DNA of 21,701 bases from the IMG/VR virus record IMGVR_UViG_3300010151_000220, positions 1-21,701 of that record. One strand, 5' to 3'. Each line of letters begins with the position of its first letter. Positions within the stretch are counted from its first letter, which is position 1. The position numbers and the translations under genes are program-made. Shown in pieces: positions 333-16,812 of the stretch. The notes beneath the pieces were generated by a model. The model made no database searches. It saw only the letters and a list, made by a program, of their open reading frames with translations, and was not told the origin of the DNA. This DNA comes from a virus.

Positions 333-1505
333 CTAGCCTAACGCGATTGCCATGGGGACCGCTTCCGACGCAGCCGCCGATGATGCAGCAGCAGTAGCGC
401 TAGCCGCAGAGGCCGCAGCGGAAACCGAACTAGCCGACGCGCTTGAGGCGCTAGCCGTGGCTGAAGTCGAGGAGTTGGAGGCCTGGGTGCTGGCGGACGA
501 GGCCGAGGTCGAGGCGTTGCTGGCCTGGGTGCTAGCGGACGAGGCGCTGGAAGCGGCCGCCGTGGCTGATGCCGCACTCTTAGCAGCGTGATGTAAAGAG
601 GAATAGCTTGTGCCATCGACTGTCTGATCTTCGGGGTTGATTGCCCATTCTTTGGCAGGGCCTCTTGACGCCGTATCGGTAACGTCAGTGCCGCCTACAG
701 CCCAGGCTTTACTTGAGAAGTCCGATCCAGTAACAGCACCGTCCACTTTCACAGCGTAGTCGTCTGCTAATTGGGCTGATGTCGCCGCCGCCGTCGCACT
801 GGTGGTTGCGGAAGCGCCGTCAACGATGATGGTGAATTTTGCAGCATCGGTATTGCCGGATATTGGTAACGACCCGGAGGAGGTATGGGCCTCATTCACA
901 AAATAGACATTCCCGTTACCGCTATCGCGGACTACGTCCCTGATAACATATGCGGTATCGGCGGCCCAATTGCCCCGATGTTCACCGATTGACACTGATG
1001 TCGTCAGGGCAGCGCCTGTCGCATCGTAGGCCAAGATCTTGTTCTTGTTGTTTGCCGGTGTATCGTAAGGTAGGAAGAGGGGGCCTAGGGATGACCAGTC
1101 TCGGTTGCCGAAAATCTCAACCTGTACAGCGCGGTCCATGGCCTCGTCGAGTTGCTGCTGCTGAACCGTCAAGGCGTCCAGGTCCAAGTTCATCGTCGAT
1201 GCCCGGATATCGCCACCTGCGGTGAAGTCCGTTGTCCGGCTGATAGCTCTGTCGCCGATGATAGTAATCAGCTGTGCTGTCGTCGGCTCCTGTCCACCAA
1301 CGAACGTGATCGAACCCGTGCCGTCAGCGGAAAGCGCGACAGTGTAGTGGGTCGTCAACGTCTTCAGCGTAGATGACGTGGTAGAGCCCTGGTAGACGGC
1401 GAGGTCGCCCTCATCCAATACCGTAAACGTAAAGGCATAGGGGCCAGCTTGGCCGCTGCCGCCGACCGTGTACTGAACCCTCCTTGTTACCGCTGCTACA
1501 GTCAT
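333..1505 (-). CDS. Tail fibre protein with T7 gp17-type N-terminus, 390 aa
   Basis: This is the host-recognition fibre or its base. Residues about 1-130 (RRVQYTVGGSGQAGPYAFTF, VLDEGDLAVYQ, TTHYTVALSADGTGSITFVG, then NLDLDALTVQQQQLDEAMDR) match the tail-attachment domain of T7 gp17-like fibres ('Y.......F...F.YL....V.V...L...L....Y......I.......I.R.T.......D.N...Q..E..DRA'). A middle WNAADTAY-like segment (GNWAADTAYVIRDVV) resembles a carbohydrate-binding-like repeat. The end is an Ala/Ser/Thr rod and stops without a receptor-binding tip or chaperone domain, so the tip is probably another protein. ATG at 1505 with GAGGA 8 nt upstream is preferred to a TTG just before. Good confidence. Confidence 0.85.
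   Translation of the reverse strand: MTVAAVTRRVQYTVGGSGQAGPYAFTFTVLDEGDLAVYQGSTTSSTLKTLTTHYTVALSADGTGSITFVGGQEPTTAQLITIIGDRAISRTTDFTAGGDIRASTMNLDLDALTVQQQQLDEAMDRAVQVEIFGNRDWSSLGPLFLPYDTPANNKNKILAYDATGAALTTSVSIGEHRGNWAADTAYVIRDVVRDSGNGNVYFVNEAHTSSGSLPISGNTDAAKFTIIVDGASATTSATAAATSAQLADDYAVKVDGAVTGSDFSSKAWAVGGTDVTDTASRGPAKEWAINPEDQTVDGTSYSSLHHAAKSAASATAAASSASSASTQASNASTSASSASTQASNSSTSATASASSASASSVSAAASAASATAAASSAAASEAVPMAIALG
481..564 (-). repeat. 42-bp tandem duplication in the fibre rod
   Basis: The plus-strand segment beginning GCCTGGGTGCTGGCGGACGA at 481 recurs at 523 with one change in its first 23 bases. It encodes two 14-residue units (ASSASTQASNASTS and ASSASTQASNSSTS) in the Ala/Ser rod of the fibre. 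Unit number would set rod length. Confidence 0.75.
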
Positions 1506-1532
1506 CAATCAGTTCCTCTGTCGTTTGTATAT

Positions 1533-4418
1533 CTAAAAATCCAACCCAACGCCAGCGATACCGCCAGCCCGTTCTGCTTTTTTCTCGTCGATGGCGGTCT
1601 TCAAATCTGGATATTCTTGATACAAGAGTGATCTCGCGGCTTCATCTCTCACAGTAACTATGCTTTGCATTCGGGATACTTTCGCAGCTTTGTCGAGTTT
1701 GTTGTACACGGTTTCGCCAGCACCAAATACCTGCGCGTCGATTTGTTGTAGCAGGGTGGGCGGGTTTCTCCGGCCTTTGTAAAATCTTGACGAATCTGGC
1801 CTCATCGACAATTCCAACAGCCGGTTGTAGTGTTCTGCACTAAGGTCAACGCCTTCTATTTTTCGCTGCGGCATAGTGATGCCATCACCAAGGTTAACGA
1901 GTTCAACATCAACTTTTCTGTGGTCAGTTGTCCTTACCCGAATTGGCAGGTAGGGCATGTCTAGGCCGCGCACGGTTTCGGCCCATCGATTGAGCCGAGG
2001 CTGGAGGCCCTGCGAAATGCCCGGAATGCCATCACGCCATTTCTGGATCGCGCCCCAGATATTCCGCATGATCAACGTATTGCCATGTTCTGGCGGCAGA
2101 TGGCTCCTGAATTGTGGATCTGTCACGCCTTCGATCAGCTTCGTCAAGGTTGGCGGCATGGTGCCGAGGGTGACGGCACTTTGAGCCGTGGACAGCGCGG
2201 CACCCGTGTAGACTTTAGCGAAGGCGCCTGCGAGGGCCTCCAGACCGCCGACGCCCTTGGGGCGAAACGCCACGGCATTCGACAGGGTTTCGATGCCTTG
2301 CATCATGGGCATAGTCCCCACGTAATTGTACACACCCGCCGTCATCGCCGTCATTATGTCTCCGAGATTGTCGGCGCCCTCGTATTTCGCGAGTTGTCGG
2401 TAGTCAGCCATAATCGCCAGAAGTCCCGACACCGGCTCAAATCGGCTGAAGCTGACAGCCGTCCAAGACCCGTCAGCATTACGGCTATGCATCGAATATG
2501 GCTGGATGCCTGCCCGCTGCCATGCCTCCCTGGTTTTCTTATCCACGGGCATGCCGCCCGTCACCCGGATGTCGCCTTCCTCCTTAACTGGCCCGGAGTT
2601 CTCCAGGCTCTCCATCAGCATGTAGACGCTGCCAAGAAGCATGGACCCGAAGGCCATCTTCCCCATGGCCATGTCGGCGGCAGGCCCGCCTTCCTTCACG
2701 GCCTTCTGGAAATCTGACAAGCCCAACTTGCCGATCACTGAATCGCCCATGCCCATGCGGCCAGCTGTCTGGCCCCATACCACGTCAAGGAGGGGAAGGG
2801 GCGTCCGGTCGATCATTGCCTTGGCGATGTTTGTCGGCGTTTTGTAGAACGGCGAAACGGGCTTCATCGCAGCAGACTGGAAGAACGGTGCCAGCCTCGC
2901 CACACCACCTTCAAGGTCTTGTTGATATGTGCGGTCCAAGGCCTCGTCGATCAGGCGTTGACGCACCTTTTGCGAGGGATTGACGACGATCTCGTCGGTG
3001 GCAATACGAGCGGCCTCGCGGGTATCCATGCCGCCATGCACCAGTTCAGCTGCACGGCGATGCGCCAGGGCATGCATTTCGGCGCGTCGGAAAATGGCCT
3101 TAAAGAATTCGTCTTCTGCCATCAGCAATCGCCCGGGTTGTCTTACAAACCACTTCGCCATGAAGTCGATGCCGCGGGCGGCAGCGCCGTCAGCATCCAT
3201 CGCAGGTATCAACCGCGCCATGTTTTCCCCGGTCACGGCGCGTGTCTTGTACTCAAGCTTTGACACGCCGCCGGTAGGCAGTTCTGTCATATATGATCTG
3301 CCAGCCGCCCGGAAGGCCTCGCCAAAACTCGACATCAAAGCGTATCCGTAGGATGTCGCCTCGCCGAACAAGACACGCTCGTCATCTGGCATGCTTCGAA
3401 TAAGAGTGCGGCCTCTCCCGGCGACGGCGGCGACAGCCCGCTCGGGTACGGCCAAGGAGCCGTTCAAAGCATTCGACAATATATTGACCATGTGAGTGAC
3501 GGGTGATGCCAGTAGGCCGTTGACGTAGACCTCGACAATCATGTCAGCCGTCAGCCGTCCCTTGCTTGCAAGCTCCTTGACGAACGTACTTTGTTGCGTC
3601 GGGTCAGGCATCCTGATGTAGGCCTGGGCTAGCATATCTTTGGCAATCGGGTCCGCGTCTTGGCCAACCCTTTGGCCTCTCTGGATCAGGTCGAGAAGGG
3701 GCGCAGCGGCTTGGTCGTTTGCCATCGCGATTTGTCGTGTTGACGCGAGGCCGCGGGCGGTAGCTGTCCGCATGTTAATCAAATTCTGCACGAAGACGCC
3801 CTGCGCCGCCATGCCAGCTGACGCGACCGAGAACAGGTGGTCGATTTCTTCCTGTGATCTCCCGTTGGCCCGAGCATTAAGGTATTTGCCGAACGATTTC
3901 CTGACGGCCAAAGCCCATTGAACGTGGGCATGACCAACAGCGGTGAGGGTTACGTCGAGATCTTTTAGCGTAGCCGCGCTGGCGCCCTTTTCCAAAACCT
4001 CAAAGGTGCGGTCCATGCCCAGTGCGGCGGCTTTCTCTTGCAGCTCTGCAAAGGTTCTGGTCACATTGTGGTCGAGGTTCGACTTGATGCTATCGACTAC
4101 GCCATCAATGAGGCCTCGGATCGTCGCATCGCTGACGGTGTCGGAGCCAAAGATCCGCTCCATGTTGATGTCGTGAAACGGAACACCTTTAGTGGGCGAT
4201 GGCTTGCCGCTGATTTTGCCGCTCAACCGGCCAAAGAGGTTGTGGCCAGGGTACGCTTTGAGAATTTCGTTCGCTTCCTCATGCGTCGGCTGGCGGATGA
4301 CGATACTCTCGCCAACATGCTTGATGACATCGCCGTCGTCCATGACGCCGCTGATCTTCGGCTCTGGATTGCCTACGTCATCGAGCGCGCCTTTGAGGGC
4401 TTTTGTGAGATTTACCAT
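1533..4418 (-). CDS. Very large internal virion protein, 961 aa
   Basis: This is probably ejected with the genome. Helical throughout, it has segments recurring in long phage structural/polyvalent proteins: YVNGLLASPVTHMVNILSN at 298-316; PFFQSAAMKPVSPFYKTPTN at 511-530 followed by a helix ending DRTP; a hydrophobic segment at 582-604 (MAMGKMAFGSMLLGSVYMLM); and REAWQRAGIQPYSM at 630-643 with a following strand SWTAVSFSRFEPVSG. The second half is richer in Gly, Met and hydrophobics, compatible with membrane interaction. There is no evident enzyme motif. GGGAG lies 7 nt before the ATG, which is 3 nt past the previous stop. With the 877-aa protein it replaces the single gp16 of T7. Confidence 0.7.
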   Translation of the reverse strand: MVNLTKALKGALDDVGNPEPKISGVMDDGDVIKHVGESIVIRQPTHEEANEILKAYPGHNLFGRLSGKISGKPSPTKGVPFHDINMERIFGSDTVSDATIRGLIDGVVDSIKSNLDHNVTRTFAELQEKAAALGMDRTFEVLEKGASAATLKDLDVTLTAVGHAHVQWALAVRKSFGKYLNARANGRSQEEIDHLFSVASAGMAAQGVFVQNLINMRTATARGLASTRQIAMANDQAAAPLLDLIQRGQRVGQDADPIAKDMLAQAYIRMPDPTQQSTFVKELASKGRLTADMIVEVYVNGLLASPVTHMVNILSNALNGSLAVPERAVAAVAGRGRTLIRSMPDDERVLFGEATSYGYALMSSFGEAFRAAGRSYMTELPTGGVSKLEYKTRAVTGENMARLIPAMDADGAAARGIDFMAKWFVRQPGRLLMAEDEFFKAIFRRAEMHALAHRRAAELVHGGMDTREAARIATDEIVVNPSQKVRQRLIDEALDRTYQQDLEGGVARLAPFFQSAAMKPVSPFYKTPTNIAKAMIDRTPLPLLDVVWGQTAGRMGMGDSVIGKLGLSDFQKAVKEGGPAADMAMGKMAFGSMLLGSVYMLMESLENSGPVKEEGDIRVTGGMPVDKKTREAWQRAGIQPYSMHSRNADGSWTAVSFSRFEPVSGLLAIMADYRQLAKYEGADNLGDIMTAMTAGVYNYVGTMPMMQGIETLSNAVAFRPKGVGGLEALAGAFAKVYTGAALSTAQSAVTLGTMPPTLTKLIEGVTDPQFRSHLPPEHGNTLIMRNIWGAIQKWRDGIPGISQGLQPRLNRWAETVRGLDMPYLPIRVRTTDHRKVDVELVNLGDGITMPQRKIEGVDLSAEHYNRLLELSMRPDSSRFYKGRRNPPTLLQQIDAQVFGAGETVYNKLDKAAKVSRMQSIVTVRDEAARSLLYQEYPDLKTAIDEKKAERAGGIAGVGLDF

Positions 4419-4421
4419 GGC

Positions 4422-7055
4422 TTAACTCCCGGCCTTGGGGGGGTTAAGCGGGGCGTCTAGCTTTCTTCGGCCTCGTCCTCGTCCGCCTCTGGGGCCAGCG
4501 GCTGCACGACCTTCGCCAGACGCTGGAACAGTTCCGTCTCCGCTTTGCGTAGAGCCGCTCTTTCGTCCGTGTTTTCTGATGAGTTCGTCGAGTTTGCCAA
4601 GATCAACTCCTTCCGCTTCTGTCCAAGGCCTGCCTTCTTTGCCAGCTTTTTGGACGCTAAATCCCTTGGGTATGACGCCACTACCCCGCTTCTTAATGTC
4701 GGAGATCAAGGCTTCCTTCGTGTCTTTTGTGAACGTGTAAATTGTACCATCGCTGGCCGGATATTCAAAGCGGAACCCGCGCTTGGTTTTCACTTGAGAG
4801 AAGCCGTAGTTCCATGTGCCGAACCTGCCTTCTCTAGCTTTGGCGCCGACATACGGGTCTAAGTCGCCCCTGGCCTGCTTGATCAAGCCCAGCAAACTTG
4901 CGTGGTCCGCTTCTTGGTTGCCGCGCTTAACCCAAGTCTTCCAGTGCCATTCGCCAGCGGTTACGCCCTTCGGCAGCTGACGGGCCAGTTCCGCTTCGAT
5001 CTGTTCGTAAAGTAGCAGGCCTCTATGGCCCTTGAATATTTCTGCCAGAGATGTCCCGGCCTTGGTTGCCAGTTTATCTGTCCCAGTCCTTACCTTCTCA
5101 CCATCCCATAGATTTAGGTCATCAAAACGGCCATCATCAAAGAATGCCTTGGCCTGGATGCGGTCGATTATAACAACGTCCTTGCGGCCAGCCAGCAGCA
5201 TCATAAAGGACAGCACCTTGTTGTTGATGCCTGGGTCATCAGCCAACTCATAGAAGCGGCGGCGAACATCCTTGGATGAGACAGATGGGTCAGAGAGTAG
5301 ATCGTGGAATTGCTGTAGCGGCGAATTGCCTGCTTCGCCAGCACCCATCTTCCGTAGGAAATCCTTACCAAACGCATTCAAGTTATGCTGTGTGCCCCGT
5401 CCAAATGATCCCTCTTTGATCACGCCGGATGCCCAATCCAGATACCTTACCAGCATCTTGTCGTCGAACTTGCCGCCCAAAGCTGCCTGAATAAACGGCT
5501 CTATGCCGTTGATGGCATCAAGAAATCCCGCCTCCTGAACACTCGGCGATACGCCTCTCGACAACATGCCCCAAAGGGTCAGCTTGGCAGTGGTTGTGGC
5601 ATCGGCTTGGGCGTTGCCCCCCGCCCTGTAAAGCGATGCAAAGTCGTTAGCAAACTCCAGACCATCGTCAGCCATGCGTAGTTGATCCGGCGTGAGGTCG
5701 AGCATCTCATCGTGCAACCGGCCTTCGTTTGCCATCTGTATGAACCGATACGGCGGAATTGGGACATCCGTGTCGCCCAGTGCGTCGGCCCACATATTGC
5801 TGAATGCCTCTTCAGAACTGAACGGCTCTGGGTGCCGAGATATAACGTCATCCAATCCCTTGGCTTGCCGTGTGGCGTTCTTGGTATTTGTCTTTTTTAT
5901 AATCAAAGGCTTTGTATGCTCTGGTTGGACAGTTGCGGCCTGTCGGAAGCGCGACATCAAACCCCATAAGTTGTCTTCTGCAACCGCAGCCTGTCCGGGC
6001 AGTTTCACGCTGCCGGACGTGTCTTCAAAGAACTCCTTTAATACCTGAGTGAATTGCCCGCCTAACCCCGAATCCTTTGCAGCAATAGCCAGCCGCCCAG
6101 CTTTGTTTAGCACTGGTGTCAAAACAAGGCCGGGGACGCTGGCAAAGAGGCGGGAGCGGAAATTCGTGTCTATAAGTGAGCCTGGGTCAGCGTTAATGAA
6201 GTCCTCAAGCGCCTTGTGTACTAAAGCTGAATATTCCCCAACATCAAGGCCAGCAAGGGCATAGTCCTCGGGGATAGCTGAGAAAAGGCTCACCAAGTCA
6301 TTAGCTTCAGTTTCAGATGATGTGGCAAAATCACCCAAGCCGCCGCCGACAAGGTCGGCAATCACTGCACCGCTGCCCGCCATTTTTAACGCCTTGATGA
6401 ACGGTATCATGGTTGGAACAGCCTGCGCGATGCCCTTGCCAAAAGCAGCCGCCATACCCGGAGGCGCTGGCGGTGGCTTGGCATCCAGCCCCGTCAACTC
6501 ACCCAGGAAGTCCAGGGCATCGCGTAACGTGGTTAGTTTTCTGCCGTCCTCCGTAATCCATTCGCCAATCGGAATAAGGTCGTTTACGTTGGCCGCTCCC
6601 GCGACGAGGCCTTCGGGCATGCCCGCGAAGAAGTTTTGGACGCCCTCCACAAATCCGCCTTCGTCCTCTTCCGTAGCCGCCACGGCCTCTGCCTCCTCCT
6701 CGACGGCCTCCTCGGGCGGTGATAGTGATGACAACTCTGTGTCTGCCGTCATCTGGGCGGCATGAGCGTTGGCTGATATGCGTGAATAGCTCCCGTCTGG
6801 ACCACGCTGCACAACAGGCTGACCGTCACCGATGATGCTCTGATCCTCGTAGGCCCTCAACATCATCTTGTTGATGTCGTTGGGGTTGTCTGACACCTGC
6901 GCGGCGGGGCGTATTTCGATTTTCAGCGGCCCTTCCCCCGTGTCAACGTCTGGCTGCTCAACGACCGGCATTGGCGCGGGCGGGAGATTGACCTGTGGCA
7001 GATCCGGTCGTGACCCAGGCACCTCGGTAACAATGCTATTCAGGGGATCTGCCAT
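4422..7055 (-). CDS. Large internal virion (ejection) protein, 877 aa
   Basis: This is a probable ejection protein in the place of T7 gp16. Regions in order: Pro-rich N-terminus; acidic stretch at about 114-134 (EEAVEEEAEAVAATEEDEGG); hydrophobic, Gly/Ala-rich segment at 208-243 that could insert in a membrane; helical middle; a compact domain at about 555-720 (GRGTQHNLNAFGKDFLRKM, later SFMMLLAGRKDVVIIDRIQA and AGEWHWKTWVKRGNQ) that resembles a domain found in very large phage polyvalent proteins. No lytic transglycosylase motif is visible. GGGGAG lies 6 nt before the ATG. The last 48 codons are Gly/Arg-rich and codon-poor, while another frame there looks better, so the C-terminus is uncertain. 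Confidence 0.65.
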   Translation of the reverse strand: MADPLNSIVTEVPGSRPDLPQVNLPPAPMPVVEQPDVDTGEGPLKIEIRPAAQVSDNPNDINKMMLRAYEDQSIIGDGQPVVQRGPDGSYSRISANAHAAQMTADTELSSLSPPEEAVEEEAEAVAATEEDEGGFVEGVQNFFAGMPEGLVAGAANVNDLIPIGEWITEDGRKLTTLRDALDFLGELTGLDAKPPPAPPGMAAAFGKGIAQAVPTMIPFIKALKMAGSGAVIADLVGGGLGDFATSSETEANDLVSLFSAIPEDYALAGLDVGEYSALVHKALEDFINADPGSLIDTNFRSRLFASVPGLVLTPVLNKAGRLAIAAKDSGLGGQFTQVLKEFFEDTSGSVKLPGQAAVAEDNLWGLMSRFRQAATVQPEHTKPLIIKKTNTKNATRQAKGLDDVISRHPEPFSSEEAFSNMWADALGDTDVPIPPYRFIQMANEGRLHDEMLDLTPDQLRMADDGLEFANDFASLYRAGGNAQADATTTAKLTLWGMLSRGVSPSVQEAGFLDAINGIEPFIQAALGGKFDDKMLVRYLDWASGVIKEGSFGRGTQHNLNAFGKDFLRKMGAGEAGNSPLQQFHDLLSDPSVSSKDVRRRFYELADDPGINNKVLSFMMLLAGRKDVVIIDRIQAKAFFDDGRFDDLNLWDGEKVRTGTDKLATKAGTSLAEIFKGHRGLLLYEQIEAELARQLPKGVTAGEWHWKTWVKRGNQEADHASLLGLIKQARGDLDPYVGAKAREGRFGTWNYGFSQVKTKRGFRFEYPASDGTIYTFTKDTKEALISDIKKRGSGVIPKGFSVQKAGKEGRPWTEAEGVDLGKLDELIRKHGRKSGSTQSGDGTVPASGEGRAAAGPRGGRGRGRRKLDAPLNPPKAGS
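4457..4600 (-). CDS. Possible overlapping small gene or frameshifted end, 47 aa
   Basis: Inside the 877-aa gene, the +1 frame reads TTG at 4600, then ANSTNSSENTDERAALRKAE and TELFQRLAKVVQPL, ending APEADEDEAEES at TAG 4457: an amphipathic helix with an acidic tail. GGAAGGAG lies 6 nt before the TTG. Over the last 36 codons (4460-4567), 26 end in G or C, against 14 in the 877-aa frame. Either an internal gene is translated from this site, or the true C-terminus of the 877-aa protein switches to this frame. The frame is open further back to GTG 4681. Chance cannot be excluded without homologues. Confidence 0.4.
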   Translation of the reverse strand: MANSTNSSENTDERAALRKAETELFQRLAKVVQPLAPEADEDEAEES

Positions 7056-15249: not shown

Positions 15250-16812
15250 CTAAGCGGCGGCGGGCGCCGCCTGGAGGTCGCCGGGGTTGGCGTTTTCGAC
15301 GCCCGCCGCCTGTGCAGCCGCGGCCATAGCCATCTGCTGCATTTGCTGTCGTTCTTGGGGGGTTGTCCGCAGTTCCCCTGGTACGCCAAGTTTGTCCGCA
15401 ATAAAATCTACGATGGCGTCGGTGCGGGCGGCAATCTGGCCCTCCGGCCCGAAGCTGGCGAGGATCTGCATCCACTGCATCACCTTTTCTATTTCTTCGT
15501 TGTTCTGCGCCTGCGCCAGGGGAGATACGGGGACCATCTTGACCTCCAGGCCGTCAACCTTGAGCGGCATTTTGATCAGGCCAGCCTCGTCCATCACCGC
15601 CAGGGTACGGCGCACCAGTGGGACCATCATTTCAGTAATTAATCTGCCGAATGCTGACCCAAGGTTCTGCGATAGCTCTTGCATCCGCTGGGATATTTCC
15701 AGAGCCGTCCTGGCGGACATATCGTCCCGCGGCAAGTTGTCGTCGAGCATGACTTTCTTGATCGACATCTGCATATCTTGCATGACCAGCTGGGCCAGCT
15801 GCACGTCACCGCCTCGCGGCAGGGGAATGAGGGAGGGGCCCTGCGGGCCTCCGTTCCGTGCGACGGGGATGATCGCGCCGGGGGCAATGTTGACGACCTC
15901 CGGGTTGAGGACGCCGTCGTCGGCAGCGGTGAAGACGGGGGCAATGGAGAGCGAGGCGTTCTTCAACAGGAACTCCTTCGCCTTGTTTAGCGTTTTGATA
16001 TCTGCGAGGCAGCTGAGAATCGGACCTCGGCCATAAATTTCGCCAGCGGTCTTGGAGAAGCGGCTGATGATCCAAGGTGAGGTCAGGCTGTAGCGGACCA
16101 GCAGCAGATGCTTGCTGCCGGGATGGATCACATGGAAGCAATATTCACCACGGTCGTCGTCGTAGATTGTGGCCTCCAAAAGGTCCGCTTCCTCTTCCGG
16201 GCGGTCAACGGCAAGGCGGCGCAATTCGTCGTTCAGTTCAGCCGAGGGATATGTGCGCTGGATCAGGTCTGGCCGCATTCGGACCTTTCTGTAGACATTT
16301 TCCACTGTGTTATGGGGGCCTTCCTCCAGGCTGACCAGAAACGCGGGCACGGCGGTGTAGCGTATCGGCTCGGTAGAGGTGCCTTTTTCCACCAGCATGA
16401 CGGCTGTGCCAACGGAAAGGTCAAGCAGGAACTCGCCTAGAGCGAGGTCAAAATTAGATTGCCGCAGGGTGGAGAACATCATCTCGCGGTAATAGTCGAG
16501 CATCTGTTGGACGGCTTGGGCTGCCTCCGGGGGTATGTGCTGGCCAGCCTCCAGGCGACACCAGGAACGGTATGGCGGAAAGAGGGTTGACTGCAGCCGA
16601 TTGGCGAAGCCCTGCGTGGATGCCACGGCGGTGGAATCGAAGAGGCGGTCATTCTTCCTGGCGCCACGGCTGCGGCCCTCATAGGTGTCGTACAGATTTC
16701 GCCCGGGCAGGCAATATTCATACGCCTCCTCGTACAGACTGCGCCATTCCTCTTTTCTGGCGTCGGCGCGTTTGTGGCGCTTGAGGATTTGCTCGACCGT
16801 CATTCTAGCCAT
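15250..16812 (-). CDS. Portal / head-tail connector protein, T7 gp8 type, 520 aa
   Basis: This forms the dodecameric portal at one capsid vertex, the docking point of terminase and the channel for DNA. Its length is close to T7 gp8 (536 aa). Family features visible are the N-terminal helical region RADARKEEWRSLYEEAYEYC (about residues 15-34) followed by LPGRN, the segment NDRLFDSTAVASTQGFANRL (54-73) leading to QSTLFPPYRSW, a long central beta-rich region, and the helical stretch DDMSARTALEISQRMQELSQ with the usual 'T-A-x-E-(I/V)-x-x-R' pattern. The C-terminus is Gln/Ala-rich and probably flexible. ATG at 16812 has AAGG 9 nt upstream; a second ATG three codons later is possible. Call is secure, supported by scaffold and capsid genes downstream. 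Confidence 0.94.
   Translation of the reverse strand: MARMTVEQILKRHKRADARKEEWRSLYEEAYEYCLPGRNLYDTYEGRSRGARKNDRLFDSTAVASTQGFANRLQSTLFPPYRSWCRLEAGQHIPPEAAQAVQQMLDYYREMMFSTLRQSNFDLALGEFLLDLSVGTAVMLVEKGTSTEPIRYTAVPAFLVSLEEGPHNTVENVYRKVRMRPDLIQRTYPSAELNDELRRLAVDRPEEEADLLEATIYDDDRGEYCFHVIHPGSKHLLLVRYSLTSPWIISRFSKTAGEIYGRGPILSCLADIKTLNKAKEFLLKNASLSIAPVFTAADDGVLNPEVVNIAPGAIIPVARNGGPQGPSLIPLPRGGDVQLAQLVMQDMQMSIKKVMLDDNLPRDDMSARTALEISQRMQELSQNLGSAFGRLITEMMVPLVRRTLAVMDEAGLIKMPLKVDGLEVKMVPVSPLAQAQNNEEIEKVMQWMQILASFGPEGQIAARTDAIVDFIADKLGVPGELRTTPQERQQMQQMAMAAAAQAAGVENANPGDLQAAPAAA

Follow-up and report, generated by a model that had tools for sequence, protein, structure and literature searches.

A probable small gene nested in the +1 frame at the end of the gene preceding internal virion protein D in a T7-like podovirus and its relatives

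The window analyzed here is a 21.7-kb virus record (21,701 nucleotides, the whole stretch) with a GC content of 57%, whose minus strand carries T7-like podovirus structural genes, namely portal, capsid, tail tube and nozzle, followed by genes of 233, 664, 877 and 961 aa. The region of interest lies at the end of the 877-aa gene and comprises the following features.

4422..7055, minus strand: annotated 877-aa host gene, whose Gly/Arg-rich end constitutes the overlap.
4457..4600, minus strand: candidate nested +1-frame gene of 47 aa, with a TTG start and a TAG stop at 4459-4457; proposed from codon usage, from the group A start site and, in relatives, from similar +1 products and selection in the +1 frame.
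4607..4612, minus strand: putative ribosome-binding site AAGGAG of the nested gene; proposed from its sequence, its predicted pairing and its matching position in an alignment with ten group A loci.
4457..4681, minus strand: the same +1 ORF in its longest form, starting at GTG 4681 and encoding 74 aa.
1533..4418, minus strand: next gene, encoding a 961-aa internal-virion-protein-D-like product (PHROG 6651, E 4.7e-23).

The 961-aa product also matches the internal virion protein D of marine podoviruses among named relatives, and its gene starts 39 nt beyond the end of the nested gene. For the 877-aa product, neither Pfam nor PHROG yields a matching family; it is presumed to be a virion protein from gene order only. 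Its annotated tail is predicted to be disordered in a structure model of the C-terminal region (low confidence, mean pLDDT 58). A PDB sequence match of the 877-aa protein to an arginine kinase (E 6.4e-5 over 149 residues) is thought to be spurious. Elsewhere in the window, the 3′ end of a probable tail fibre gene (333-1508, minus strand) consists of a long Ala/Ser-rich low-complexity stretch.

The sequence GGAAGGAG occupies positions 4614-4607 and is followed 6 nt on by an in-frame TTG at 4600, exactly as reported in an earlier note on this DNA. The pairing predicted for this binding site amounts to -8.3 kcal/mol, the values for the 13 gene starts of the window spanning -2.9 to -12.1; it comes sixth among 77 alternative-frame starts whose ORFs encode 40 aa or more and is not exceptional when taken alone. 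The second frame is open, with its own start and ribosome-binding site as expected of a nested gene, and this arrangement is conserved in group A, the set of relatives discussed below. The 47-residue product would carry a net charge of -7 and contain no cysteine. Its strongest amphipathic stretch spans residues 23-40 and was equalled in 67 of 5000 shuffles, which supports the amphipathic helix proposed previously. Two alternative-frame starts inside the portal gene, at 15887 and 16721 on the minus strand (ORFs of 82 and 80 aa), have binding sites stronger than that of the nested gene and are absent from the listed top codon-score windows.

The +1 frame is stop-free from 4705 to 4457. Openness alone is unremarkable in a genome of 57% GC, where about 21% of windows are open in +1, and this favors a reading in which the 877-aa gene merely ends in a fast-evolving low-complexity tail, whose Gly/Arg/Ala-rich codons, in a genome of high GC, produce the +1 signal incidentally, and no second protein is made. 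The third-position composition is of little help: between 4570 and 4460, GC-ending codons number 14/36 in the annotated frame, as first counted, and 27/37 in the +1 frame, a recount replacing the earlier 26/36, and they reach 30/36 in the third frame, so that GC3 alone does not single out +1. Codon usage is more discriminating. With a codon model built from the 13 genes of the window, the best 36-codon window (start 4571) scores 0.273 in +1 and -0.216 in the annotated frame, a difference of 0.489 that is the highest among 2849 stop-free alternative-frame windows; apart from windows overlapping it, the runner-up reaches 0.121. For 46-codon windows, the top difference is 0.366 and the next -0.018 (n=2003). 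Over its last 50 codons, the 877-aa gene shows an advantage of +1 over the annotated frame that exceeds that of all other stop-free stretches in the window genes. When the annotated tail was redrawn synonymously according to window usage, none of 20,000 sequences was both open and as good in +1. Permutation of the tail's own codons alone reached the observed +1 score in 4.3% of cases, a result that also speaks for the low-complexity reading since part of the signal must stem from the unusual codon and residue content of the tail. With this 4.3% taken into account, the second frame displays the coding-like codon usage expected of a nested gene, and the second coding signal claimed by the earlier note is real. 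Between about 4634 and 4580, the preference passes from the annotated frame to +1, and the first 27 codons of the 74-aa form show no clear +1 preference.

A change of coding frame near the end of a gene could also reflect a base insertion or deletion, either real or due to a sequencing error, that moved the true C-terminus into +1. The only close relative, contig L002, is 96.7% identical to the window over 10.3 kb and carries identical bases throughout the overlap; since it represents another strain, the base error contemplated earlier is unlikely, and the same two-frame arrangement recurs in group A relatives. Taken as a whole, an origin by insertion or deletion appears extremely improbable. 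The identity of the overlap in L002 makes this pair uninformative on selection, and between the window and group A the substitution counts have reached saturation, so that the case for the ORF of the window itself is drawn from codon usage and kinship. In the same comparison with L002, residues of about 165 to 345 of the 877-aa protein (window 6020-6560) diverge strongly between nearly identical flanks, forming a mosaic block.

This kinship is with group A. The host-gene C-terminal region of the window is 29-36% identical to those of L098, L129, L141 and L115, and the start regions coincide in the alignment, the AAGGAG-6-TTG of the window corresponding to (A/G)GGAG-6-GTG in ten group A relatives. 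The +1 products of the window and of group A align over nearly their full length; their similarity was never equalled in 2000 shuffles for L129 and L141 (0/2000), had shuffle frequencies of 0.0005 for L098 and 0.002 for L118, and was not significant for L102. Because the underlying DNA is homologous, similarity between +1 products is evidence of a shared ORF but does not on its own demonstrate selection. Judged by these alignments, the window is a member of group A.

Selection was addressed by counting substitutions in relatives according to annotated-frame codon position (1, 2, 3), upstream of and within the overlap. With all pairs considered, the upstream and overlap counts are, respectively, 31,16,338 and 120,13,53 in A2; 9,4,109 and 27,6,12 in group B; 54,63,302 and 83,44,68 in group C; 75,23,273 and 60,24,42 in group D; 18,6,82 and 22,6,8 in group E; 250,165,268 and 73,73,79 in group F; and 323,239,540 and 167,145,123 in group G. 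As pairs within a group share history, 12 disjoint pairs were chosen, for which the counts are 194,111,597 upstream and 86,39,52 in the overlap (Fisher p 1.7e-17, position 1 vs 3). Taken singly, nine of the 12 pairs give p values below 0.03, the others being L052-L053 (0.05), L071-L073 (0.14) and L055-L056 (0.72). As controls, windows were slid along the same host gene and along internal virion protein D, giving 72 to 338 per pair. The shift in the overlap lies beyond every control window in 10 of the 12 pairs, among them L110-L116 and L052-L053 with 2 and 3 substitutions, respectively; no shift beyond controls was found for L055-L056, where 92/253 controls reach the overlap value, or for L071-L073 (21/310). 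The closer pairs of groups A to E were decisive, the positional counts of distant pairs of groups F and G looking flat. The change in pattern becomes visible about ten codons past the proposed start.

The direction of this shift bears on the low-complexity reading. Relaxed selection would level the three positions; instead, annotated position 1, which is mostly silent in +1, is in excess, and such an excess, as opposed to an evening-out, requires selection in the +1 frame. Position 2, non-silent in both frames, is the lowest (p 0.0006 vs the upstream pattern carried over to +1), and both frames therefore seem constrained. The comparison of homologues recommended by the earlier note, which was to look for conservation of the +1 frame, thus came out in favor of that frame, and it shows purifying selection on +1 at this place in the relatives.

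The AT-rich groups F and G provide a further argument. Open +1 stretches of that length are rare in their loci, amounting to 0.2-1.6% of windows, and the proportion of synonymous rewrites staying open is 0.00015 for L055 and 0.00045 for L056. For group F, in which the substitution counts lend no support, this rarity is an argument for the gene, even though in L059, which is nearly identical to L056, the start is soon followed by a stop and L051 is devoid of the ORF. The recurrence of the ORF in AT-rich relatives, where open +1 stretches are this rare, together with the excess at position 1, makes a mere low-complexity tail decidedly improbable.

Two coding frames could be connected in another manner. 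A programmed +1 (or -2) ribosomal shift would join the +1 frame to the 877-aa protein, yielding the two C-termini envisaged previously; such a shift would equally explain why the +1 frame is coding and why it stays open beyond the start on the upstream side, as far as 4705. Sequences resembling binding sites can also stimulate ribosomal shifts. The relatives argue otherwise: their start codons follow a binding site, TTG or GTG being used in group A and ATG, GTG or TTG in other groups, no shift-prone run common to the aligned group A start region could be recognized by eye, and the change in substitution pattern begins at and after the start. A shift is consequently disfavored and we regard it as improbable. 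Internal initiation fits best, because the start codon is of three kinds, mostly behind a binding site (weak in group E), because common shift-prone codons are absent and because the annotated frame is open up to the next gene. Ribosomes would thus initiate internally at TTG 4600 by means of the AAGGAG site, while the annotated frame would be translated through the same bases and terminate just before the next gene. We hold with considerable confidence that the 3′ end of the 877-aa gene harbors a nested, internally initiated small gene in the +1 frame and that both frames are coding, the relatives lending good support to the small overlapping gene among the options listed at the outset. A second protein of 47 aa is very probably encoded by another frame of the last part of the large gene, presumably made in this phage and from TTG 4600. 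Since related phages keep a similar hidden small gene, current genome annotations overlook such genes.

The distribution of this arrangement was surveyed further. When the 877-, 664- and 961-aa proteins were used as queries, nothing beyond contigs near the window came up; the nozzle protein gave 27 loci, some of which have a +1 ORF with a binding site over the end of the gene preceding internal virion protein D. Alignment scans with the latter protein supplied 15 viral loci, the best 80 of 311 qualifying loci and nine bacterial contigs. From an input of 104 loci, four were dropped (no match or ORF) and 15 lacked an upstream gene, leaving 85. A +1 tail ORF had to encode at least 35 aa and a binding site to match at least 5 bases. 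In this set, which includes the best 80 of 311, a +1 tail ORF occurs at 56/85 loci, as compared with 85/402 other genes of the same loci, and is accompanied by a binding site at 27/85 (10/402 among the other genes); the remaining 29/85 loci have none. Many of these loci are near copies. When they are grouped into 31 clusters at 80% internal virion protein D identity, again with the best 80 of 311 included, 14 clusters have a +1 tail ORF and seven a binding site as well. By eye, several of the 56 ORFs look like chance occurrences (L078, L091, L093-L095, L113 and L123). Among the background cases, that of L106 is perhaps a further example of such a gene, an incorrect neighbor having been taken as the upstream one. 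In L066 (3430-3630), L067 and L068, the host gene contains a 66-aa +1 ORF at a more upstream position, beyond the limits of the survey. In survey groups A to D, the nested stop lies 35-39 nt before the start of the next gene, with the exception of L079 and L082 (9 nt); that this spacing plays a role in coupling is a guess.

The small proteins themselves appear diverse. Profile comparisons among those of groups A, B, C and E/F found none related, and profiles of the window host gene and of the host genes of groups F and G revealed no homology. We tentatively suggest, as a possibility that we do not favor, that the gene end before internal virion protein D is a slot for several small nested genes, nearly always in +1. 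If true, nested genes would be repeatedly born or exchanged in one genomic place, perhaps because an ejected protein requires a matching small partner, exchanged together with the C-terminal domain of that protein, and this recurrence would offer a testable system for the birth of overlapping genes. The C-terminus of the host gene is exchangeable between phages, and that of L069 matches ART-PolyVal, an ADP-ribosyltransferase domain of polyvalent proteins (E 4.6e-6, below the cut-off of Pfam). These two observations lead to the weakly held guess, rather unlikely in our opinion, that the product is a late-made accessory of the neighboring ejected virion proteins, for instance a partner or chaperone of the exchangeable C-terminal domain. 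The host genes of L088, L124 and L119 (groups B, C and E) match Pfam DUF7178 with E values of 3.5e-24, 0.00059 and 1e-5, respectively, only L088 being above the cut-off.

Searches among named phages found no relative of the 877-aa protein, of five small +1 proteins or of the L098 DNA. The C-terminal part of the 877-aa protein gave two chance matches at E 7, and an archaeal-virus match of a small +1 protein (E 0.2) was likewise taken as chance. Against Pfam and PHROG, the small proteins gave weak matches only and no family; the B-type protein was not encountered elsewhere in bacterial genomes (0/2 and 0/385, in searches run without a positive control). The gene is not described in the accessible portions of the open-licence literature on overlapping and nested phage genes, small proteins, DUF7178 and polyvalent proteins (including PMC5512222 and PMC8024684). 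Phage polyvalent proteins (PMC5512222) resemble the host genes of the relatives in their exchangeable C-termini, one of which is that of L069 with its ART-PolyVal match. The 877-aa protein was rejected as a polyvalent protein, having no recognized effector domain and no Pfam match.

The nearest named relative found by nozzle protein (51.7%) is Methylophilales phage MEP301. Its gene order agrees with that of the window from tail tubular protein B through to the internal virion protein, but the gene before the latter encodes 161 aa and ends with a +1 ORF preceded by a weak binding site. In the MEP301 record (L033, 5032-8131), homology to the 961-aa protein of the window is divided between gp24 (residues 292-338) and gp23 (424-951), which lie in different frames, pointing to a frameshift or a sequence error in that record. 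Besides MEP301, 14 records of named phages were examined; among those tabulated, no +1 ORF with a 5-base binding-site match exists at that place except in CRP-227, where it encodes 33 aa and stops 158 nt before the next gene.

Out-of-frame nested genes are known from well-studied phages. In Rz/Rz1 spanin pairs, Rz1, a lipoprotein with a lipobox cysteine, can lie within Rz in the +1 frame; the 47-aa product, which offers no cysteine for a lipobox, does not fit an Rz1-type outer spanin. The relatives described here constitute a natural series for the study of two frames evolving together, and a Gly/Arg-rich tail whose other frame behaves well may be the tell-tale of such genes missed by gene callers. 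Gene E of phiX174, nested in another frame of gene D, is likewise a small out-of-frame gene with its own start inside a longer gene of the same strand, and the candidate would operate in that manner too. In contrast to gene E, the gene considered here occupies the 3′ end of a gene that precedes an ejection-protein gene in T7-like podoviruses, its product has no sequence relative that we could find and nothing suggests a function in lysis. The candidate belongs to a known kind, the nested genes of phages, to which it adds an overlooked small gene in the ejection-protein region of uncultured podoviruses.
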